A stretch of 53,974 bases of DNA, taken from assembly GCA_018302125.1 (NCBI GenBank), contig JAGWAC010000004.1:1-53974 (forward strand), read 5' to 3'. Of this stretch, positions 38,442 to 51,606 are shown piece after piece. Position 1 is the stretch's first letter; each line of letters opens with the position of its first letter. The translations under genes were made by a program, and so were the position numbers. The notes beneath the pieces were generated by a model that worked only from the letters and a program-made list of their open reading frames with translations, did not search any database and was not told the DNA's origin. The DNA comes from Candidatus Woesearchaeota archaeon. GTDB lineage: Archaea; Nanobdellota; Nanobdellia; SCGC-AAA011-G17; JACPIM01.

Positions 38442-39044
38442 CTATTTTTCTCCTAAAGTTAAAATGGCAAATAAGCCAATTCTTTTTTGTTTTATCACTT
38501 TTAATTTGTTTTTCTCAAAAGCTTTTTGAAATTCTTTTTCATTATAGATTTTTACATGTCCTGGCTCTATTTTTTTAAATAACCAATGAATAAAATTAGA
38601 GTAAAAATTTATGTCTGTAATAATTAATTTTCCTTTCTTTTTTAAAACTCTTGACATCTCTTTTATAGCTTTATTGGGATTTGGAAAATGGTGGAAAGCT
38701 TCTGTATTTATTACATAATCAAAAAAGTTATTCTCAAATTGGATTTTTTCAACATCACTGAATTTTAATATTGCTTTATTTCCTAGCTTTTTCCTAGCTA
38801 TTTTTAACATATTTTTAGAAATATCTATGCCAAATAATTTCAATTTTTGATTTTTATTATATAAATAAATTAAGCTGTCACCAGTTCCACAACCAACATC
38901 TAAGATTTTAATATTATCTTTTAATTTTATCTCAACAACAGTTTTCTTCTGTATATATAATAGCCAGGGCTTTACAAAAAAAGAATAATCATAGAATCTA
39001 GCCCATAAATCAAAAAATCTTCTATTGATCTCTTTTATTTCCAT
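38442..39044 (-). CDS. class I SAM-dependent methyltransferase (UbiE-like)
   Basis: 200 residues. Motif I is ILDVGCGTGDSLIYL near residue 48, followed by GIDISKNMLKIARKKLG and FDYVINTEAFHHFPNP, the Methyltransf_11 pattern. The start shares one base with the stop of the SHOCT gene (TAATG), so the two are translated together. That places the enzyme in the metal island; a role such as metalloid methylation is possible, but the three-cysteine set of ArsM is absent. Confidence 0.78.
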   Translation of the reverse strand: MEIKEINRRFFDLWARFYDYSFFVKPWLLYIQKKTVVEIKLKDNIKILDVGCGTGDSLIYLYNKNQKLKLFGIDISKNMLKIARKKLGNKAILKFSDVEKIQFENNFFDYVINTEAFHHFPNPNKAIKEMSRVLKKKGKLIITDINFYSNFIHWLFKKIEPGHVKIYNEKEFQKAFEKNKLKVIKQKRIGLFAILTLGEK

Positions 39045-39604
39045 TATTCTCTTAAATCTTTCTTCATTTGCTCAAACTCTTTTTTTGTTATTTCTCCTTT
39101 AGCATATCTTTTTTTTAAAATTTCTAAAGAATCTGAACCTAAATTCAGATTTCCATCTTTGAAATATTTAATAAAGAAATATGCCAAAATTAAAATAACT
39201 ATTATCCAGAACAAAATATTCCACCCTCCGAATGGCCAATAAGACATCATTCCAAAACCAGGACCATAAGAACCCATCATGCCTTGAAAACCTCCACGAT
39301 TCATCATATTTTGGGATATTGCATTTCTATTTCCACAATACATCATTTGCGCGATATTTATATGGGTTTGCTTCAAAGATTCTGAGCCTTCTCCACCCAT
39401 TCTTTGATCCATTATTTCATGAATTTCTCCTGGATGCATCAGCTCCATGTAATACTCTCCAATACTTTCCAATTGATCTTCAGTTAAAAGGGAACAAGAA
39501 GTTTTGCTTTGAACAAGTTTTTCGCCTTCAATTATTTTCTCCTCATCTGCGTAAACAATGCCAGACAGCAAAAGTATTAACAAAATAAACATAAGCTTTT
39601 TCAT
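39044..39604 (-). CDS. secreted/anchored SHOCT-domain protein, Met-rich
   Basis: 186 residues from ATG 39604; a GTG at 39613 is the alternative. A signal-peptide-like helix (KKLMFILLILLLSGIVYA) is followed by an external region with TSCSLLTEDQ, MYCGNRNA and a Met/Gly stretch NMMNRGGFQGMMGSYGPG suited to binding Cu(I). Next come one membrane helix (about 125-145) and a cytoplasmic SHOCT motif, LEILKKRYAKGEITKKEFEQ. The gene is divergent from the PadR-like regulator and has the shared dyad at 39620-39634 over its TATA box. A metal-related envelope function is inferred. Confidence 0.75.
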   Translation of the reverse strand: MKKLMFILLILLLSGIVYADEEKIIEGEKLVQSKTSCSLLTEDQLESIGEYYMELMHPGEIHEIMDQRMGGEGSESLKQTHINIAQMMYCGNRNAISQNMMNRGGFQGMMGSYGPGFGMMSYWPFGGWNILFWIIVILILAYFFIKYFKDGNLNLGSDSLEILKKRYAKGEITKKEFEQMKKDLRE

Positions 39605-39619
39605 ATTTTTCACTAAGTA

Positions 39620-39634
39620 TATCTATTTTTGATA
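39620..39634. promoter_or_regulatory. TATC-N7-GATA dyad, metal-island operator (site 1)
   Basis: TATCTATTTTTGATA; extended arms TATATC/GATATA. It lies between the divergent SHOCT and PadR-like genes, overlapping the minus-strand TATA-like GATATATC. The same 15-base dyad occurs at 42504 and 45874. Confidence 0.55.
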
Positions 39635-39682
39635 TATCAGAACAAAGGAAAGTATATAAATATTTCCAATATTAATTTTAAG

Positions 39683-40090
39683 ATGAAGAAAATAAAAATA
39701 ATAAATTTAGTAAAATTTTACACTCTTTTGTTTTTATACAAGCAGCCAATGTGCGGCTATGAACTAATTAAACAGCTTGAGAAATGCACTGGAAAGAAAA
39801 TAAGCGCTAGCCATGTTTATCCATTTTTAAGTCTTTTAAAGAAAAACAAGATAATCTTGATTAAGAAAAAAGGAGAAAGGGGGAAAAAAGACTATGCTTT
39901 AACAAAAGAAGGAAGGTACTTTACCAAAAGATTGATTGACAAATTTGCACAATTAATTGAGTTTGACAAAAAAATCAAAATATGTGTAAGCTGCGGATGT
40001 AAATTACTCAATGGGGAATACAAAGAGAAAATTGGAAATAAAATTTTGTGTTTTTGCTGCAAATACTGCGCCAAAAATTATAGACATTAA
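39683..40090 (+). CDS. PadR-like regulator with Cys-rich C-terminal metal site
   Basis: 135 residues from ATG 39683; an ATG-less 18-residue extension in the same frame lacks coding character. A TATA box TATATAAATA (39653-39662) is 26 bases upstream, so the mRNA is leaderless. The winged helix is FLYKQPMCGYELIKQLEKCT with SHVYPFLSLLKKNKII, as in PadR proteins. The last 35 residues carry CVSCGC and CFCCKYC, seven cysteines resembling a TRASH-type soft-metal sensor. It is the best candidate for the protein reading the TATC-N7-GATA sites. Confidence 0.78.
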   Translation: MKKIKIINLVKFYTLLFLYKQPMCGYELIKQLEKCTGKKISASHVYPFLSLLKKNKIILIKKKGERGKKDYALTKEGRYFTKRLIDKFAQLIEFDKKIKICVSCGCKLLNGEYKEKIGNKILCFCCKYCAKNYRH

Positions 40091-40096
40091 TATATT

Positions 40097-42502
40097 TTAT
40101 GGCTTATAGAACTTCATCAATAAGGAATTAGAGACCACTGATACTGAGGAAAAGGCCATTGCAGCTGCGGCTATCATTGGATTTAATAAAAATCCTGAAA
40201 AAGGGTATAAAACTCCGGCAGCTATTGGAATTCCCGCTGTATTATAGAAAAATGCCCAAAATAAATTTTGCTTAATTTTCCTTAGTGTTTTCTCTGATAT
40301 TTTAATTGCTATTGCAACGTCTCTTAAATCGTTCTTCATCAAAACTATGGTGCCTGTCTCCAGTGCAACATCTGTTCCAGAACCTATTGCAACTCCAACA
40401 TCTGCTTGGGCTAACATTGGTGCATCATTTATACCATCACCGACTGTGATTACCTTTCTACCAATGCTTTGCAGTTTTTTAACTTCCAATGCTTTGTTTT
40501 CAGGAAGAACTCCTGCAAGAACCTTGTCTATTCCTGCAATTGAAGCAATTGCTCTTGCTGTTCTTTCATTGTCGCCAGTAATCATTATAACTTCTTTGCC
40601 TAATTTCTTGAATATTTCAACTGCTTCTGTTGAATGTTCTTTTAATGTATCTGCCACAGCAATTATGCCGGCAATTCTTTTGTTTATTGCCAATATCATT
40701 ACAGTCTTTCCATGATCTTCCAGCCCAATAATAATTTCTTCTTCTTTTTTAAAAGAAATATTATTTTCCTCCATTAGTTTTCTGTTTCCCAGGTGAATTT
40801 TTCTAATACCAATATTTCCAATAACACCAAGGCCAGGAACTGCCTTGAAACTTTTGGCATCTTCCAAACTTATTTTCTTTAGCTCGGCTTTATTTAAAAT
40901 AGCTTCTGCAAGCGGGTGTTCTGATTTTTTTTCTAGTGAAGCTGCAGATTTCAACACATCTTCTTCTGAATAATTATTTAACGGAAATACATCTGTTACT
41001 TCTGGATGACCTTTTGTCAGAGTTCCTGTTTTATCCAAAACAATTGTATCTGCTTTATGGACTATCTCCAATACTTCGGCATTTTTAATTAAAATCCCAT
41101 TCTCAGCTCCTTTTCCTGTTCCAACAATGATTGCTGTTGGTGTTGCCAACCCCAATGCACAAGGGCAAGCTATGATTAATACAGCTATGAAATTGGCAAG
41201 AGCAAATGTAAACTCTTTTTCAAATATAAAATACCAAGTGAAAAATGTCAAAAATCCAATAATTAAAACGCCGACTACAAAATATTTGGAGATTATATCA
41301 GCCAACCTCTGGATTGGGGCTTTGCTTCCCTGGGCTTCTTCAACAAAATTAATTATCTGGCTTAAAACTGTATCTTTACCTATCTTAGTCGCCTTAAAAA
41401 CAAAATGGCCGTGCTTATTTATAGTTCCGCCTATAACTTGGGATTTAACTCTTTTTTCCACTGGAATACTCTCTCCAGTGATCATTGACTCATCAACAGA
41501 AGAATCCCCTTTTACTATAACTCCGTCAACAGGAATTTTCTCTCCTGGTTTAATAGAAATTAAATCATTTATTTCAACTTCTTCTATTGATATTGTAATT
41601 TCTTTATTGTTCCTTATTACAGTTGCTGTTTTGGGCTGCAAACCAATTAACTTTTTTATTGCTTCTGATGCTTTCCCCTTTGCTTTTGCTTCAAGCCATT
41701 TACCAAGCATAATAAATGTAATTATAACTGCAGCAATGTCAAAATAAAGATCAGAACCAAATGTTTCTGGTGAGAAAACACCAAGAACACTATAAAAATA
41801 AGCTGCGCTAGTTCCAAGAACTATTAGGGTATCCATGTTTGCGCTTTTTACTTTTAATGTAGTAAATGCACTTTTATAAAATCTGTAACCAATAACAAAT
41901 TGAATTGGCGTTGCCAATATGAAAAGGGCTATTTCTCTATATAAAAAATCTATTTTAAAAAATTCATAGAAAGCAAGGATAGACAAAGGTATTGTCAAGA
42001 TCAAGGAAAATATGAATAGATTTTTCAATTTTCTTATTTCAGCTGCCCTAACTTCCTTTTCTCTGTCCAAAGATGTTTCTTCTACAGCCTCATAACCAGC
42101 TGATTTTATTGTCTTGATTATATCTAAAGAGGACATTTTTTCTGGATTATATCTTATAACTGCTTTTTCATTCTGGCTTAAGTTTGCTTCAATAATTGAA
42201 TCTTTGAATTTTGCCAAAGAATTGCGGACAGACATAATGCAGTGCTCATTATCCATTCCAATTACCTTTAAATGAAGAACCCCCTGCTTGTCTTCAGAAT
42301 CAAGAACTTCATATCCTGCCCGGTTTACTGCCTGGACAAACAAATTTTCATCAGCATTTTCATATTCTATAGATGCTTTTTCTGTTGCAAAGTTAACATT
42401 AGCATTAATTACACCAGAAACTTTTTTAAGCTTTTTTTCTATAATGGTTGCACAACTTGCGCAATGCATTCCCTTTATTTTGAGGACTTTTTTCCTAACC
42501 AT
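40097..42502 (-). CDS. copA: copper-translocating P-type ATPase, CopA
   Basis: 801 residues. Two N-terminal heavy-metal domains are present: KGMHCASC with both cysteines (C14, C17) and a degenerate GMDNEHC with one. Eight membrane helices follow, with CPC in [15 protein letters not shown], the phosphorylation site [11 protein letters not shown], the actuator TGES, the HP motif SEHPLAEAI, and [10 protein letters not shown]. It exports Cu(I) from the cytoplasm using ATP. The promoter has a TATA-like box (42523-42537) and the dyad at 42504-42518 directly before the ATG. It faces the PadR-like gene convergently. Confidence 0.96.
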
Positions 42503-44294: not shown

Positions 44295-45665
44295 TCATAT
44301 TACTTTAATTATACCTGGACCAGCCATGCCCATTGAGCAACTGAATTTTATCGAGCCTTCTTTTTCAGGAACAAAATTTATTGTTTTTATCTGGTTTCTT
44401 GGCAAGTAGTCATTTATTCCTAAACTAGGCACTAAAAAAGTCTGTGCACATCCTGTTGCCCTCCTTCCATCAATACGCCATTCAACTGGAATTCCCTTTT
44501 TAACTGTAAATTTGGAGGGATAATAATCTAGACCTTCTACTTTCATTTCTATAACTTGTTTTCCTTCAACAAGTTTTGCGCTTGAATCTGTTGTTGGCGA
44601 CTGTGCATTTGCTGAAGGCAGAAATGAATCAAAATTAAACGGGCTGCCAGTTAATGTAAGACCATAACTCATATTTGTAAAACCAAGAATTATTATTAAT
44701 ACAGCAACAAATTTTGTAAAATATCTCTTGAATGTTCCTTGGGAATAGCTTGTTAAATAACCAGTTGACAATAAAGCTGGCAAGGTTCCCAGAGAAAAGG
44801 CAAACATGCTTAAAGAACCAACTAAAAAACTTCCTGTACTTAAAACATATAATTGCAAGGCCTGAGTAAAACCACAAGGTAGAAAAAATGTTGAAGAGCC
44901 AAAAAAGAATGGAGCTGATTTAGAATTTGATACTGACAAATTATGGATTTTGTGCACTACTAATTTGGGCATCTTTATTTTTAATCTATTTGTAAAAGAG
45001 AAAATATTCAGAATCTGAAAACCTAAACTAAGCATGATTATGCTTACAAATATTGTTATGAATCCTGATGCTTTTGGTGATATTTTGAATATTGATCCTA
45101 CTGCCCCCAAAAGCCCGCCTAATAATGTATATGAAAATATTCTTCCAACATTAAAATAAATGTGCGGCTTGAATTTTTGTTTTGGTGTTAAATCCGGATG
45201 TGCTTCATTATATTTTGTTGCTATTCCAAGCAACAGGCCGCCTGAAACTGCCATGCATGTTGAAAAAGCAGCAACCAATCCTATTAAAAAAATAAATCCA
45301 TAACTCATATTTTCAGAAATTCCCAGATTTGGAAGTATATCAAACTGCTTAAACAACAAATAAATTCCAAGAAGAATCAGAAAAATAGCACCAATTTCAA
45401 GATGATCTTTTTTTATTTTTATTATGCTTTTATTTTTATCTTCTACATTCTGTTTTTTTTCAGTAACCATGTATTTTGTATCTTTTAGTGCTTCTTGTAT
45501 CTGTGTTATTGATGGTACTTCAGTACAAGTTAATATTGCTTTTCCAGCTGAGTGATTTACTTCTGCTTTTAAGATTCCATTTATTGTTTTTAATTTTCTT
45601 TCTAAAAGAACTTCGCAACTAGAACAGGTCATACCAGAAATTTTTAATTCTATTTTTTCTGTCAT
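44295..45665 (-). CDS. HMA-SafE/UreH-cupredoxin fusion protein
   Basis: 456 residues in three parts. An N-terminal heavy-metal domain has SGMTCSSC (residues 10-17). A SafE/UreH-2-like six-helix membrane domain occupies about 90-345, with FSTCMAVSGGLLLG and FFLPCGFTQALQLY as the conserved Cys/Pro stretches. A C-terminal cupredoxin-like domain (about 370-456) has candidate copper ligands in RATGCAQTF and SCSMGM. Such fusions are known from copper loci and are thought to handle or relocate Cu at the membrane. The gene overlaps the copper chaperone gene by 4 bases. Confidence 0.85.
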   Translation of the reverse strand: MTEKIELKISGMTCSSCEVLLERKLKTINGILKAEVNHSAGKAILTCTEVPSITQIQEALKDTKYMVTEKKQNVEDKNKSIIKIKKDHLEIGAIFLILLGIYLLFKQFDILPNLGISENMSYGFIFLIGLVAAFSTCMAVSGGLLLGIATKYNEAHPDLTPKQKFKPHIYFNVGRIFSYTLLGGLLGAVGSIFKISPKASGFITIFVSIIMLSLGFQILNIFSFTNRLKIKMPKLVVHKIHNLSVSNSKSAPFFFGSSTFFLPCGFTQALQLYVLSTGSFLVGSLSMFAFSLGTLPALLSTGYLTSYSQGTFKRYFTKFVAVLIIILGFTNMSYGLTLTGSPFNFDSFLPSANAQSPTTDSSAKLVEGKQVIEMKVEGLDYYPSKFTVKKGIPVEWRIDGRRATGCAQTFLVPSLGINDYLPRNQIKTINFVPEKEGSIKFSCSMGMAGPGIIKVI

Positions 45666-45859
45666 TCTAATTTATATCCTAGTTTTTCTATTACTTCCTT
45701 TATTTTATTTAGATTAGTTTGTTTTTCATCAAATTCAATATTTAGTATTCCTGTTCTATAGCTTACTTCTGCTTTTACATTTATGTCCTGAAGGTCTTCT
45801 TTAATTAGTTCTTCACAGCTTTTACAGTGCATTCCTTTTACATTTAATTTTAATTTCAT
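45662..45859 (-). CDS. copZ: CopZ-like heavy-metal chaperone
   Basis: 65 residues from ATG 45859; a longer frame reaching 45931 crosses the promoter and is rejected. A complete HMA domain, LNVKGMHCKSCEELIKEDL, carries the CXXC site and the beta-alpha-beta pattern continues to EKLGYKLE. It probably passes Cu(I) to CopA or to the HMA domain of the fusion protein. It is the first gene of the operon with that fusion, and the dyad at 45874-45888 overlaps its TATA box. Confidence 0.88.
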   Translation of the reverse strand: MKLKLNVKGMHCKSCEELIKEDLQDINVKAEVSYRTGILNIEFDEKQTNLNKIKEVIEKLGYKLE

Positions 45860-45873
45860 AATTCTCAGTGAAA

Positions 45874-45888
45874 TATCAAAATTGGATA
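45874..45888. promoter_or_regulatory. TATC-N7-GATA dyad, metal-island operator (site 3)
   Basis: TATCAAAATTGGATA; extended arms ATATC/GATAT. It begins 15 bases before the chaperone ATG and overlaps the minus-strand TATA-like stretch at 45885-45893. It is also about 95 bases before the divergent regulator at 45979. Confidence 0.55.
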
Positions 45889-45978
45889 TATAATCTTTTT
45901 GGTTGTTGTAAGGGTTACGAGAGAAAAGCATTTAAACTGACATCTATATTAGAAAATAAATTTTATACAAAAAAAACA

Positions 45979-46521
45979 ATGGCAAAAAACATAGCACTTG
46001 GATTAATTTTGGTTGGCATTGCTATAATTTTTTTAATATCAATTTCAATATTTAAATTACAAATAAATAGTTTGACTAATGCATTAATGGTAGAAAGCGG
46101 GGGAACATGCATAATAGAAGGAAAATGTCTTCATGAAAAAAGCAACACACCAGTTTATATTGGGGTTGCCATAACTTTTGTTACTTTATCCCTGGGATTA
46201 TATCTTATCTTTTTTGAAAAAGGCCAAAAATATACTGAAGAAGCTTACAAAGAAATTGCAAATTCTCTGAAAGAATCAAAGAAAAAAGAAAATAAAGACG
46301 AGAAATTTAATTTTTTATTAAAGGCTCTTAATGATGATGAAAAAAATATTATGACTGCAATCAGAGACCAGAATGGAATAGAACAGGCTACTTTAAGAAT
46401 AAGAACTGATTTAAGCAAAACCAAGCTCAGCGTTCTTCTTAGTGAACTTGAGAAAAAAGGCCTTTTAAAGAAAGTAGCTGAAGGCAAAAAGAACAAAGTT
46501 TACCTTAAAATGTATATTTGA
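45979..46521 (+). CDS. membrane-anchored winged-helix regulator
   Basis: 180 residues from ATG 45979; the upstream in-frame extension crosses the chaperone promoter. Two membrane helices (about 5-27 and 58-80) flank an external loop GGTCIIEGKCLHEK with two cysteines. A cytoplasmic part with a Lys-rich linker and a MarR/wHTH-like domain follows: NIMTAIRDQNGIEQATLRI and LSVLLSELEKKGLLKK. The two-cysteine loop could sense external metal or redox state. It sits directly before the GAACAAA operator and the seven-gene operon, which it may control. Confidence 0.75.
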   Translation: MAKNIALGLILVGIAIIFLISISIFKLQINSLTNALMVESGGTCIIEGKCLHEKSNTPVYIGVAITFVTLSLGLYLIFFEKGQKYTEEAYKEIANSLKESKKKENKDEKFNFLLKALNDDEKNIMTAIRDQNGIEQATLRIRTDLSKTKLSVLLSELEKKGLLKKVAEGKKNKVYLKMYI

Positions 46522-46638: not shown

Positions 46639-47403
46639 TTGGAAAAAATGGAAGAAAAGCAAAATAAAATAAAATTTGTTAAAATTATGAATATTTTATT
46701 GGTTTTTGGCTTAATTTTTGCTCTTTACAGCCAATTTCAATTACTTTCTATAAGAGCTGTAAATTCAGATGGTTTGGAAAATGCCAATGGCGCAGTTTTT
46801 GCTTCTAGCGAGGTATTACCTGTTGGCGTGCCAAGGATATATGGCCAGAAACTTGGGATTAAATATGATTTTGTAAGCTCAAATAATCAGCAGCTGGCTG
46901 ATCAGACAATAGAAGTCTTAGGAAATCTTGACAGAACTATAAATTTAGAAGGGAAGAACTTAGAAAGATATGTTGATATTGTTTCTGAAATAAGCTGTGA
47001 ATATTGCTGCGGCGCCAAGTCAATAATTGTAAGAAAAGAGGATGTTGCAGAAATGGAGAAGAATATACAAAACGCAATAACTACAGGACAAATAACTGAG
47101 GAAGAAGCAGTCAAGTTCAGAAGAACTGCTGGCGAAGCTGCATGTGGTTGTGCACATTCTTTTGCAATGAGAGGATTAGCAAAATACCTTATTCTAAACA
47201 ATGGAGCTGAATTTACAAATGAAGAGATTTTAAATGAGTTAGGAAAATGGAAGACTTTGTTCTTTCCTGAACAAATGAGTGCCAAAGCAGCAGTAATGAA
47301 AGAAAAGAACATAGAATTTAGTTATGCTAATTTGGGAAGCAACAGATACAGGGGAATAGAACAAGGAGCTACAGCAAGCGGACAAATGGTAGGAGGATGC
47401 TGA
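46639..47403 (+). CDS. membrane-anchored CEYCCG/CGCAHS protein ending QMVGGC
   Basis: 254 residues from TTG 46639. The Shine-Dalgarno GAGGTGA (46625-46631) is 7 bases from the TTG but 16 from the next ATG, which favours TTG. One membrane helix (about 15-37) anchors an external domain with SCEYCCGAKSII and AACGCAHSFAMRGLAKYLI, six cysteines and a His. These motifs recur in a family of archaeal and candidate-phylum proteins without known function. The chain ends ATASGQMVGGC. It is first in a seven-gene operon with a DUF411 protein, so extracytoplasmic copper handling is likely. Confidence 0.78.
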   Translation: MEKMEEKQNKIKFVKIMNILLVFGLIFALYSQFQLLSIRAVNSDGLENANGAVFASSEVLPVGVPRIYGQKLGIKYDFVSSNNQQLADQTIEVLGNLDRTINLEGKNLERYVDIVSEISCEYCCGAKSIIVRKEDVAEMEKNIQNAITTGQITEEEAVKFRRTAGEAACGCAHSFAMRGLAKYLILNNGAEFTNEEILNELGKWKTLFFPEQMSAKAAVMKEKNIEFSYANLGSNRYRGIEQGATASGQMVGGC

Positions 47404-47404
47404 A

Positions 47405-47599
47405 ATGAACAAAAAAATGATAATGCTGATTTTAGCAGTTGTTTTAGTTTTGCTGATTGGAGTACAGGCTTATGAGCTTAATGTACTGAAGAAGAACATT
47501 AATGGCGACTTTGGTTTAGAAACTGGAACATTTTCAAGTGCTACAACAGCAAAACAAAGCAGTCCAGCAGCTGCCTCACAAATGGTAGGGGGATGCTGA
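47405..47599 (+). CDS. small anchored protein ending QMVGGC
   Basis: 64 residues: an N-terminal membrane helix (MIMLILAVVLVLLIGVQAY), a Ser/Ala/Thr-rich linker and the C-terminus AAASQMVGGC. The final six residues equal those of the preceding protein. Apart from its single C-terminal cysteine it has no metal-binding residues. It starts 1 base after the previous stop, with a GGAGG-type Shine-Dalgarno inside the upstream QMVGGC codons. No named family recognised. Confidence 0.7.
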   Translation: MNKKMIMLILAVVLVLLIGVQAYELNVLKKNINGDFGLETGTFSSATTAKQSSPAAASQMVGGC

Positions 47600-47600
47600 A

Positions 47601-48068
47601 ATGAAAAATGCTTATATTTTTTCTTTTTTTATTTTGAGCCTTTTAGGTGTATCTATTTATCTTTTGTCTGATAACCAAAATAAAATAGATGGAAATGTTG
47701 GCGAAGTTATTTTATATAAATCAAATACATGTGGTTGTTGCGGAATTTATTATAATTATCTTAGAAACAATATTGGTAATTCTATAAAGGCAGTGAATTT
47801 AGAAGATATGAATGCAATAAAAGAAAAATATACTATACCATTATTTCTCCAGAGCTGTCATACAACAATAATCAGTGGGTATTTTGTTGAGGGGCATATT
47901 CCTATTGAGGCTATTAACAAATTAATTTCAGAAAAACCAAATATAAAAGGAATAGCAATGCCTGGAATGCCTTCAGGTTCACCTGGAATGCCTGGAAAAA
48001 AGATCGGGTCTTTTGATGTTTTTGCTGTTTCAAATGATGGAAAAAGCGAATTATTTATGAGTTTGTGA
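47601..48068 (+). CDS. DUF411 (CopG-like) copper protein
   Basis: 155 residues. An N-terminal signal or anchor helix precedes the DUF411 domain: YKSNTCGCCGIYYNYL (metal-binding CXCC), LQSCHTTIISGYFVEGHIP and a terminal GIAMPGMPSGSPGMPGKK. The family occurs in bacterial and archaeal copper-resistance loci and is believed to bind Cu outside the cytoplasm. It is the third gene of the operon, preceded by GGGGG inside the upstream QMVGGC codons. The best functional anchor for this operon. Confidence 0.88.
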   Translation: MKNAYIFSFFILSLLGVSIYLLSDNQNKIDGNVGEVILYKSNTCGCCGIYYNYLRNNIGNSIKAVNLEDMNAIKEKYTIPLFLQSCHTTIISGYFVEGHIPIEAINKLISEKPNIKGIAMPGMPSGSPGMPGKKIGSFDVFAVSNDGKSELFMSL

Positions 48069-48075
48069 GGAGAAA

Positions 48076-48594
48076 ATGAAAAAATTTTTTATTTTTACTT
48101 TTTTATTAATATATTTGGATAAAGCGTATGCTCATTGTCCTCTATGCACTGTCGGCGCTGTTGCAGCTGCTGGCGGAGCTGCCTGGTTGGGATTAAGCCA
48201 AATTGTAATTGGCTTATTTATTGGGGCTTTTGCAATTTCTCTTGGATTATGGAGCTCTAGATATCTGAAGAAAAAATATGTTCCAATTCAAAATTTTTTA
48301 ATCGCTCTTTTTTTATTTTTGACAATAGTCTTGCCAGTTTTACCTCTAATGAAAGAGCTTTATCCTTTTTATATAAATATTTCTGGAGATTATGGTTCTT
48401 TGCTAAACAGGACTTATATTATAAATTCTTTTTTAGGTGGGGGCATTATAGGTGGAATTATTGTCTTTTTGTCGCCTTTTGTAAGCATGAAAATTATGAA
48501 ACTGAGAAATAATAAGCTGATCCCTTACCAGGGTGTATTAATCACTTTATTACTCTTAATAATAGCTGGGGTTATATTTCAACTGACATTATGA
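48076..48594 (+). CDS. four-helix membrane protein with HCPLC motif
   Basis: 172 residues. A cleavable or anchoring N-terminal helix ends at AYAHCPLCTVGAVAAAGGAA, so the H-C-X2-C group would lie outside the membrane right after the signal. Four further hydrophobic segments follow. The HCPLCT start is recurrent in archaeal membrane proteins without assigned function. It is followed by the next gene with a 4-base overlap. The cysteine pair may receive or reduce a metal or a disulfide. Confidence 0.7.
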   Translation: MKKFFIFTFLLIYLDKAYAHCPLCTVGAVAAAGGAAWLGLSQIVIGLFIGAFAISLGLWSSRYLKKKYVPIQNFLIALFLFLTIVLPVLPLMKELYPFYINISGDYGSLLNRTYIINSFLGGGIIGGIIVFLSPFVSMKIMKLRNNKLIPYQGVLITLLLLIIAGVIFQLTL

Positions 48595-49016
48595 GCTTTT
48601 TTTATGTCCTTGGGATTATTTCTGTTTTGTTTTTTGTACTACTTTTTATAAAATCTTTTTTCAGACTAAATAATTTCTGTGTTATCTGCGGATCAGTAAG
48701 CTTGACATGGATATTGCTTTTAATTTTATACTGGTCTGGATATTTTAAAAATACATTAATTATTGCCTTACTTGCTGGACAGAGCATTCTTGGATTATTT
48801 TATTTATTTGAAAAAAAACTAGAGATGTTTCGCCTACCTTTTCTGCTTACTTTAACTTTTTTTGGATATTCTTTGTTTGGCGTTTATGATGGAATAAAAG
48901 AAAGTGTAATTTTCCTGCTTATTTTGTGGTTATTGTTTTTTGTTTTATACTATTATCAAGACAAAAATATGAAGTCATTTGTCAAAAAAATAATAGAGTG
49001 CTGCAGAAATTGGTAA
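48591..49016 (+). CDS. multi-helix membrane protein with FCVICG motif
   Basis: 141 residues with about five hydrophobic segments. An early FCVICGSVSLTW motif (cysteines near 30-33) is followed by ILYWSGYF, and the tail is basic with CC near the end. The paired cysteines in a membrane helix entry resemble those of the preceding protein, suggesting both belong to one membrane complex. No named family. Overlaps both neighbours. Confidence 0.65.
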   Translation: MSFFYVLGIISVLFFVLLFIKSFFRLNNFCVICGSVSLTWILLLILYWSGYFKNTLIIALLAGQSILGLFYLFEKKLEMFRLPFLLTLTFFGYSLFGVYDGIKESVIFLLILWLLFFVLYYYQDKNMKSFVKKIIECCRNW

Positions 49017-49591
49017 ACAGTAGGAATGAAAAAAACAGCAGAAGCAAGGAGAGAAAACCATTAATTTATGGTTTTCTTGGCGGAATTCTCTTAATTAGTT
49101 TTTATTTTTTTGTACTTAGTTTTGCAAACAGTTTCCAGCATGCTATGCAGGAATTTCTAAAATTATGGTATTTTATACTTCCAATTGTAGCTGGATTTGG
49201 AACCCAGGTTGGATTGTATTTTTATATAAGATCTTTTACAAATAGGATAAACTTAAATGGGGAAGTTATGGCTACTGGGGGGGTTTCTGGTGGCTCAATG
49301 ATTATCTGCTGTGTTCACCATCTTTTTGATATTCTTCCAATTATTGGGCTAAGTGCATTTTCGTTATTTTTAGTAAATTATCAGACAAGTTTTCTTTTGT
49401 TTGGAATCTTGTCCAATTTTGTTGGATTAAGCATGATTCTAGGAATTATACAAAGAAATAATCTTTATACTAAAAATAATGGCTTCTTAAGAAAGCTGAT
49501 GTTTTTAAATTATGACAGAACAGTTTATTATGTACTAGGAATTTCTGCTCTGATTTTTTTAACTAAATTAATTTCAACGAGGTGGTTTTAA
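48998..49591 (+). CDS. multi-helix membrane protein with CCVHH motif
   Basis: About 197 residues. The likely start is GTG 48998 or TTG 49010, overlapping the previous gene's end; no ATG is near and the frame stays open further upstream. Five hydrophobic segments are seen. A conserved GVSGGSMIICCVHHLFDIL lies near residue 100, a Cys-Cys plus His-His cluster within or beside the membrane that would suit copper or haem. Similar CCXHH membrane proteins occur in archaeal metal loci. Function unassigned. Confidence 0.7.
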   Translation: MLQKLVNSRNEKNSRSKERKPLIYGFLGGILLISFYFFVLSFANSFQHAMQEFLKLWYFILPIVAGFGTQVGLYFYIRSFTNRINLNGEVMATGGVSGGSMIICCVHHLFDILPIIGLSAFSLFLVNYQTSFLLFGILSNFVGLSMILGIIQRNNLYTKNNGFLRKLMFLNYDRTVYYVLGISALIFLTKLISTRWF

Positions 49592-49999
49592 ATGTTTAAA
49601 GAAATATCTTTTGTATTTTTTGTAATTGTTTTAATCAGCGGGTTTTTCTTTATTTTTCTGGATTCTGGTGAAACAGAACTTAATTCATCTTCGAATTTAC
49701 AGACCAAAACAAGTCAAAGCACAGTCAGCATTGATCTTACTCCACAATCATTTAATGGAAAAGAATTTGTTGTCAACATCGGTGTGAATACACATATAAC
49801 TGATTTAAGCAGATTTGATTTAAAAGAACTTGCTGTTTTGGAAATTAATGGAAAGTCTATAAAACCAAAATCTGCACCAAAGCTTAGCGGGCATCATAAC
49901 AAAGGTGCCTTGATTTTTGATGTAAATAAAAAACCAGAAGACTTTAAGATTATAGTAAAAAGTTTTCCAGATTTAGAATTAAGAGAATTTAAATGGTAA
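49592..49999 (+). CDS. secreted/anchored beta-rich protein with GHH motif
   Basis: 135 residues. One N-terminal hydrophobic helix (about 5-25) is followed by a Ser/Thr linker and a beta-rich external domain: VSIDLTPQSFNGKEFVVNI, GVNTHITDLSRFDLKEL and LSGHHNKGALIFDV. The THITDLSRFDLKE...SGHH pattern recurs in archaeal metal-locus proteins. The His pair may bind metal. It begins 1 base after the previous stop and is the last gene of the operon. Confidence 0.68.
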   Translation: MFKEISFVFFVIVLISGFFFIFLDSGETELNSSSNLQTKTSQSTVSIDLTPQSFNGKEFVVNIGVNTHITDLSRFDLKELAVLEINGKSIKPKSAPKLSGHHNKGALIFDVNKKPEDFKIIVKSFPDLELREFKW

Positions 50000-50420: not shown

Positions 50421-50797
50421 AATAAAAAAGAAAAGGTAGACTATTCTGAATGCCCCACGCAATTTTTACAAATCCACAAATTGCTTCTGTAGGATACACA
50501 GAACAGGAATTAAAAGATAAAAAAATAAATTATGCAGTTGGAAAATACAATTATATTGATACTGGAATGGGTCAAGCAATAGAAGAAAAAGAAGGCTTTG
50601 TAAAAATATTAGTTGAAAAATCAACAGGAAAAATTCTAGGCTGTCATATTATTGGTCATGAAGCAAGTACACTAATCCATGAAGTGATCATAGCAATAAA
50701 GTCAGGTTCTGGAACAATAGACAACATTACAAATTCTGTTCATATTCATCCATCTTTGTCAGAAGTAGTTCAAAGAGCAGCAAATAGCAGCATCTAA
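50421..50797 (+). pseudogene. C-terminal remnant of a flavin disulfide reductase
   Basis: From ATG 50450 the frame gives MPHAIFTNPQIASVGYTEQE through the dimerisation domain to HIHPSLSEVVQRAANSSI. This is the C-terminal interface domain of the dihydrolipoamide dehydrogenase/mercuric reductase family, with the HIHPS-x-x-E active-site His-Glu pair. The FAD/NAD-binding 340 residues are missing. Just upstream, a different frame gives NKKEKVDYS, which normally precedes PHAIF, so one base was lost near 50448. It sits beside the metal island, suggesting a former MerA-like enzyme. Confidence 0.8.
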
Positions 50798-50868: not shown

Positions 50869-51606
50869 ATGGAAGAACAGAAAGAAGAAACTATAACATT
50901 AAAGAAAACAACAATATGGAAAATTTCAGCTGTTGTATTAGGTATTCTTTTCATAATATCAATTTTTACAGGCGGCTTTGGTTTTAGAGATAACGCTCCT
51001 ACTGGAGGTACAGTATTAGATGACACTGGAAATAATGAACCAACAATAATAGCAAAAGTAAGTGTTGATGACGATCCAGTTTTAGGTAATAAAAATGCGC
51101 CTGTAACAATAATTGAATTTTCAGATTATCAATGTCCTTTCTGTAGAAGATCTTATACCCAAGTTTATTCTTTATTAAAAGAAAATTTCATAAATACAGA
51201 TAAAGCAAAATTAGTTTTTAGAGATTTTCCATTGACAAGCATACATCCAGGAGCATTGCCAGCAGCAGAAGCAGCTGAATGTGCAGATGAACAAGGAAAA
51301 TATTGGGAAATGCATGATAAAATATTCGATGAACAAAATAAATTTGGTCAAGGAACAGTTCCTTTTACAAATGACGATTTAAAAAAATGGGCTTCTGAAA
51401 TAGGATTAAGCACAGGAGACTTTAATTCATGCTTGGATTCTGGAAAATACAAAAGCGAAGTTGAAAAAGATTTTAGCGACGGAAATGCATACGGAGTTTC
51501 AGGAACCCCAACTTACTTTATTGGCAATGATAAAGATGGTTATGTAATAGTTGGTGGAGCTCAGCCTTATCAAGTATTTGAACAAGCAATTAACCAATAT
51601 TTATAA
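50869..51606 (+). CDS. DsbA-family thioredoxin-like oxidoreductase
   Basis: 245 residues. A cytoplasmic start with a membrane helix (about 17-37) precedes an external thioredoxin fold: VTIIEFSDYQCPFCRRSY (active-site CPFC), FRDFPLTSIHPGALPAAEAA and the cis-Pro loop GVSGTPTYFIG. It should oxidise or isomerise disulfides of secreted proteins, which fits the many Cys-rich external proteins nearby. A TATA box TTTATAAATA (50838-50847) is 27 bases before the ATG, so the mRNA is leaderless. Confidence 0.9.
   Translation: MEEQKEETITLKKTTIWKISAVVLGILFIISIFTGGFGFRDNAPTGGTVLDDTGNNEPTIIAKVSVDDDPVLGNKNAPVTIIEFSDYQCPFCRRSYTQVYSLLKENFINTDKAKLVFRDFPLTSIHPGALPAAEAAECADEQGKYWEMHDKIFDEQNKFGQGTVPFTNDDLKKWASEIGLSTGDFNSCLDSGKYKSEVEKDFSDGNAYGVSGTPTYFIGNDKDGYVIVGGAQPYQVFEQAINQYL

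Follow-up and report, generated by a model that had tools for sequence, protein, structure and literature searches.

A candidate extracytoplasmic copper-handling operon with an exclusive MVGGC protein terminus in DPANN archaea and CPR bacteria

On the plus strand of contig JAGWAC010000004.1, from the 829 kb genome of a Candidatus Woesearchaeota archaeon (GCA_018302125.1), seven open reading frames (ORFs) run from 46639 to 49999 with gaps of 1-7 nt or short overlaps between neighbours. We take this operon to be, on balance, probably a system by which DPANN archaea, and certain bacteria of the candidate phyla radiation (CPR), handle copper outside the cytoplasm, and in which a thiol arm ending in MVGGC would pass Cu(I) or reducing equivalents. 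The first two products, G1 and G2, are otherwise unalike proteins that both terminate in QMVGGC, and in the genomes surveyed this end was found exclusively where G1 is encoded. An earlier note on the window (the whole 53,974-nucleotide stretch of DNA analysed) had singled out the operon as a candidate copper system, without remarking on the shared end of G1 and G2. All its ORFs are present, tightly packed on one strand, and the signatures it quoted (CEYCCG/CGCAHS, HCPLC, FCVICG, CCVHH and GHH) can be read there, together with the CGCC of the DUF411 protein, and are conserved in homologues. The components of the operon are:

46639-47403, plus strand: G1, membrane-anchored Cys-cluster protein (CxxCC ... 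CxCxH) of 254 aa with an MVGGC end and invariant Cys/His
47386-47403, plus strand: MVGGC-stop tail of G1
47405-47599, plus strand: G2, tail carrier of 64 aa, N-terminally anchored, its sole Cys terminal (from the homologue set)
47582-47599, plus strand: MVGGC-stop tail of G2
47601-48068, plus strand: G3, anchored DUF411 protein, CopG-like (CGCC, PGMPSGSPGM), copper-cluster protein by homology (PF04214; PDB 6wis/6wje)
48076-48594, plus strand: G4, membrane protein with a signal peptide, HCPLCT being the predicted mature N-terminus (74/74 homologues)
48133-48147, plus strand: HCPLC motif of G4
48591-49016, plus strand: G5, membrane protein with CxxC and a C-terminal CCxxW tail
49010-49591, plus strand: G6, membrane protein with SMxxCCxHH, from an uncertain TTG start near 49010 (the listed ORF start, 48926, overlaps G5)
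49592-49999, plus strand: G7, anchored beta-sandwich with TH...GHH

The tail is found at the end of 125 of 153 distinct G1 proteins. Among G2 proteins, collected by their [MILQ][VI]GGC ending, 155 of 156 distinct ones carry it, and in 125 of those 156 the terminal Cys is the only one in the protein. Although the linkers before it vary, the tail itself is strictly conserved at all five positions. When we searched 236 genomes of the phylum with a degenerate DNA pattern for MVGGC followed by a stop, about 150 sites with varied synonymous codons appeared in 63 genomes, against 2 for the reversed pattern used as a control. Every one of the 63 tail-bearing genomes encodes G1, and no site was found in the 171 G1-negative genomes. 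Each locus has only two or three tail-carrying genes, and these are adjacent. In most of the loci where G1 lacks the tail a neighbouring small protein retains it (L047, L052, L055, L056 and L058, for example), so that the tail resembles a functional element held in common, which another protein of the locus can provide in trans. A search of open-licence papers returned nothing relevant for MVGGC, and we regard the tail as an unusual, possibly categorically new element. In a separate set of proteins (cluster 31: L041:15007-16245, L108 and others) the G1 domain is fused to an N-terminal domain with several transmembrane helices and an ICPVCQS motif; these fusions have no tail of their own and are followed by a tailed G2.

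G1 is present in 65 of the 236 genomes, and other genes of the operon follow it: G4, the HCPLC protein, was seen in 40 G1-positive genomes but in just 3 G1-negative ones, and G6, the CCxHH protein, in 21 and 1, respectively. Fisher p-values for linkage to G1 are 1e-55 for the tail, 2e-24 for G4 and 2e-12 for G6; they assume independent genomes, which these are not, although the linkage itself extends across many families and genera. We also collected about 77 G1 neighbourhoods, clustered their genes into families, and recognized two layouts, both of which are present in some loci. Type A reads regulator, G1, G2, DUF411, G4, G5 or the helical family F13, G6 and G7, with varying completeness, while type B reads G1, G2, F2 (anchored tandem thioredoxin domains) and CcdA. 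The 80 named GTDB loci are those whose G1 best matched that of the window, and hence describe mainly type A; in them we counted G1 80 times, G2 72, the regulator 67, G4 59, F13 45, DUF411 37, G6 33, CopA 23, G7 20 and G5 18. The same genes are found in CPR bacteria. The families on which the earlier note built its proposal thus do co-occur across archaea and CPR and recur together, but as a looser set than it had drawn, with G5 often replaced by F13 and with G6 and G7 optional.

As for the spread of the system, the closest named relatives of the G1 of the window are metagenome-assembled genomes (MAGs) of Woesearchaeota and Pacearchaeota. The Nealsonbacteria label of locus L175 is credible, because G1 is present in 11 of the 287 genomes in its group, while we distrust the Bacteroidetes label of L113, a groundwater MAG whose G1 is 59% identical to that of the window. 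A search for plasmid-borne relatives of G6 and G7 found none, and a G6-G7 fusion was seen in 10 other ORFs.

G1 is anchored at its N-terminus and has an outer domain that is mostly helical. The residues C120, C123, C124, C169, C171 and H173 are kept in 80 of 81 aligned sequences, and the invariant positions also include G63, P65, D77, R110 and P210. The AlphaFold2 model is confident (predicted local distance difference test, pLDDT, 91.2), and a fold search against the PDB gave no match (best E 1.5, TM-score below 0.2); neither did the sequence have a relative in Pfam, NCBIfam or the PDB. Assignment to PCYCGC or another Pfam family was tried and rejected, with no match among 54 members. In the model the mean pLDDT of the tail is 75-78, against 54 for the linker (residues 41-50), and since the tail exceeds the linker this hints that it may pack on the domain. 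Between CxxCC and CxCxH (residues ~132-163) the G1 of the window and its close relative in L033 have an insert of about 33 residues that is missing in most G1. A distant G1-like domain with SHEGGPCCCKCWRWYAFEGLAKYLI occurs in the same neighbourhoods (L038:15188-15787, L059:14841-15488 and L066:5482-6084).

The remaining membrane proteins carry signatures that are far beyond chance, as they are conserved across dozens of distant homologues: HCxxC in 74 of 74 distinct G4, CxxC in 26 of 26 G5, CCxH in 45 of 45 G6 and GHH in 37 of 38 G7. The HCPLC of G4 lies outside the membrane segment and is immediately preceded by a signal-peptidase-like AxA site; all 74 homologues have Ala at -1 and V, A, I, S or L at -3. 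Such residues are typical of a signal-peptidase site; mature G4 therefore probably starts with His-Cys and HCPLC would be its N-terminus after cleavage. G5 and the unrelated F13 are interchangeable after G4 and share a KKI-CC-xxW/E ending, which can be seen in G5 at 48999-49016 and in F13 at L041:7703-8203 and elsewhere. No convincing PDB relatives of G4, G6 or G7 were found; for the beta-sandwich of G7 the best fold match was Ig-like and not significant (E ~0.04, TM-score ~0.35), and F13 matched only, and weakly, designed and consensus TPR proteins in the PDB. A Pfam scan of the seven products assigned DUF411 alone, and the family libraries and open-licence literature searched held no description of G1, G2, G4-G7, F13 or the tail. 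The copper setting and DUF411 are already known, and the rest of the system is mostly undescribed.

The copper connection starts with G3. Its assignment to DUF411, made in the earlier note, is borne out by PF04214 (8.2e-25) and by the solved CopG structures (PDB 6wis/6wje; E 9e-20 over 113 aligned residues). CopG holds a tetranuclear (Cu4) copper cluster via CxCC and two Met (PMC7558416). The CGCC and PGMPSGSPGM of G3 align with 6wis, leaving CxCC and the Met pair of GMPxGSPGM intact, and CxCC is kept in 48 of 53 DUF411 homologues. Like CopG in the cop/cut operons of Gram-negative bacteria, G3 is extracytoplasmic and lies near CopA; unlike there, it is membrane-anchored, archaeal or CPR, and stands beside G1, G2 and G4-G7. 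The operon is flanked by the following genes:

45979-46521, plus strand: REG, a winged-helix regulator with two transmembrane segments and an external Cys/His loop (DUF7343/MarR-like; loop sequences)
45662-45931, minus strand: CopZ-like HMA chaperone (PF00403, 4e-13)
44295-45665, minus strand: HMA, DsbD_2 and cupredoxin fusion (domain matches; CxMGM motif)
40097-42502, minus strand: CopA, Cu(I) P1B-1 ATPase (TIGR01511, 5.9e-193; E1-E2 ATPase, two HMA domains)
39629-40090, plus strand: PadR-type regulator with a Cys-rich C-terminus (PF03551; family in 10 loci)
39044-39613, minus strand: anchored Met/His-rich protein with a SHOCT domain (PF09851; family near G1 in 19 of the 80 named loci)

REG, directly upstream, travels with the operon in 67 of the 80 named loci. 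The score of CopA exceeds the curated TIGR01511 cut-off for P1B-1 copper ATPases. The earlier note had placed CopA, CopZ and the cupredoxin fusion adjacent to the operon; they are indeed its neighbours, but CopZ and the fusion are divergent and CopA is about 4 kb away, with the PadR regulator and the SHOCT protein beyond it, so none of them belongs to the operon's transcript. Across the phylum, CopA occurs in at least 57 of the 63 tail-bearing genomes and in at most 93 of the remaining 173, and within the tail-bearing genomes 25 of 60 CopA copies lie no more than 12 kb from an MVGGC gene, where random placement predicts about 1.5. In CPR loci L175, L202, L203 and L206 a CsoR-family repressor (PF02583) adjoins G1 or the system, and in L204 and L205 the genes for DUF411, G4, G5, G1, G2, F2 (thioredoxin) and CopA form a single run. 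The likeness to CopA/CopZ systems with CsoR-type regulation covers the Cu(I) ATPase, the HMA chaperone and, in CPR, the repressor family, whereas the archaeal loci have the membrane-bound winged-helix regulator with its external Cys/His loop. A scan of the proteins of the operon and its neighbours found no multicopper oxidase, CusCBA or CopB. With the families co-occurring, CopA and CsoR adjoining and DUF411 matching CopG, the putative copper role of the system is well supported, though solely by association. The earlier note had held that its reading would fall if the families did not co-occur or regularly lay among non-metal genes; applied to these loci, that check did not refute it.

Two types of cupredoxin occur in these neighbourhoods. 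In the first, the usual His positions appear replaced (GCxxF, CxMGM), which suggests an all-sulfur copper site; this kind, with a CxMGM ending, is represented by the fusion of the window and by L033, L034, L040, L045, L051 and L057, type A loci among them. The second is CuA-like (CxxxCGxGHxxM) and lies near MVGGC genes in L038, L047, L051, L067, L073, L101, L103 and L109. Downstream of the operon, positions 50450-50797 encode, as a separate 115-aa product, what looks like the C-terminal dimerisation domain of a pyridine-nucleotide disulfide reductase; a DsbA-like gene (50869-51606) adjoins it.

The mechanism we propose, most economically a Cu(I) relay or buffer outside the cytoplasm, starts from what the data show directly: the gene content, the co-occurrence, the exclusive tail, the invariant ligands, the homology to CopG and the association with CopA and CsoR. 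That copper is the metal, that the tail transfers it and which way it flows are what we infer. In this scheme CopZ would load CopA, and CopA would export cytosolic Cu(I). Outside the membrane the ion would be bound and relayed by Cys/His/Met sites of the anchored proteins, with the new-fold G1 and the CopG-like DUF411 protein as cluster sites and with G4, G5 and G6 offering membrane-proximal Cys/His sites. G2 would be a flexible membrane tether whose chemically active part is MVGGC alone. The terminal Cys of G1 and G2, perhaps together with the Met, could then work as a mobile thiol arm. Docked at a site common to both tails, for which the Cys cluster of G1 or DUF411 is the simplest candidate, it would hand over Cu(I) or reducing equivalents. 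The thioredoxin/CcdA module, where present (type B, CPR), would keep the thiols reduced. It is possible, if doubtful, that MVGGC represents a new kind of functional protein end, a membrane-tethered thiol arm that unrelated proteins have in common and that docks on new-fold G1, with Cu(I) passed between the protein ends MVGGC (G1/G2), mature HCPLC (G4) and CCxxW (G5/F13).

Several observations weigh against the mechanism proposed here. The CopA enrichment near the system rests on genomes taken as independent; only 17 of 36 type B loci have a copper marker within the stretch examined; about half of the G1/G2 loci have thioredoxin/CcdA genes instead of DUF411 and G4; and the strictness of all five tail residues, which exceeds what a metal ligand alone would need, points to partner recognition. 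The extracytoplasmic copper relay put forward in the earlier note is supported in part, by the association with CopA, CsoR and CopG; G1 and G2 are not confined to a copper context, because the pair also occurs without DUF411 and G4, together with CcdA and tandem thioredoxin domains. G1 and G2 may form mainly a thiol-disulfide relay, reduced by CcdA and the anchored tandem thioredoxin and in turn reducing a client, for instance a CuA-type cupredoxin, with copper genes adjoining since copper damages or needs their thiols. We think this rather unlikely, even though F2 (PF13192, 44 loci) and CcdA (PF02683, 37 loci) are the commonest partners of G1/G2 where G4 and DUF411 are missing and CuA-like cupredoxins accompany 8 loci. 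Among known systems, CcdA/DsbD-thioredoxin relays resemble the type B operons in joining CcdA with anchored thioredoxin domains, and in the window a DsbD_2 domain stands between HMA and cupredoxin in one fusion protein; the partners here, however, are the MVGGC-tailed G1 and G2, which match no described family. Thioredoxin is found in type B operons with CcdA and in CPR loci L204 and L205, and neither gene is in the operon of the window; many type A loci likewise lack F2 and CcdA, and protein reduction by itself leaves the linkage to CopA, CopG and CsoR unexplained. Within type B, MVGGC-tailed G1/G2 head the F2 and CcdA operons of L063-L109, which lack DUF411 and G4. Pairs of a BlaI-type repressor and an M56/M48 membrane peptidase adjoin type B loci in archaea and CPR alike (L063, L068, L077, L079, L099 and L101; L200, L201, L207 and L208).

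The tail might also be a C-terminal processing signal, with the terminal Cys as the point at which an enzyme would cut the protein, attach a lipid or form a cross-link. Five strict residues behind variable linkers on unrelated proteins are what an enzyme recognition site would look like, VGGC resembles a lipobox, and the MYXO-CTERM-type tags of surface proteins (PMC11980579) are likewise short conserved C-terminal motifs with an invariant Cys. We nevertheless judge it improbable. MVGGC has a stop codon right after the Cys, with no transmembrane helix or basic tail behind it as in MYXO-CTERM and sortase-type signals, and it occurs on two or three adjacent genes per locus rather than on dozens per genome. 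No dedicated enzyme family common to all tail loci was found among the neighbourhood gene clusters. The lipobox form is unlikely because Lgt was undetected in five tail-bearing genomes (G032, G121, G170, G189 and G226), and we rejected it. Lgt is otherwise common in this archaeal phylum (186 of 236 genomes), yet it was listed for no archaeal control genome.

A soft-metal system for Ag, Hg or As, or copper uptake instead of efflux or buffering, is very improbable: MerTP and MerP models match the HMA parts weakly and the ligand chemistry would suit Ag and Hg too, but the nearby ATPase belongs to the Cu(I) P1B-1 class (TIGR01511), DUF411 is CopG-like and CsoR-family repressors, a family that has further effectors, adjoin the system in CPR.

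Copper handling at the cell surface of DPANN archaea and CPR bacteria is scarcely described in the literature searched, and their tiny genomes hold many unassigned genes. Here, recurrent undescribed families with invariant ligands and copper neighbours make function directly testable, and an exclusive MVGGC end on unrelated proteins could reveal a new way of tethering reactive thiols outside the membrane.

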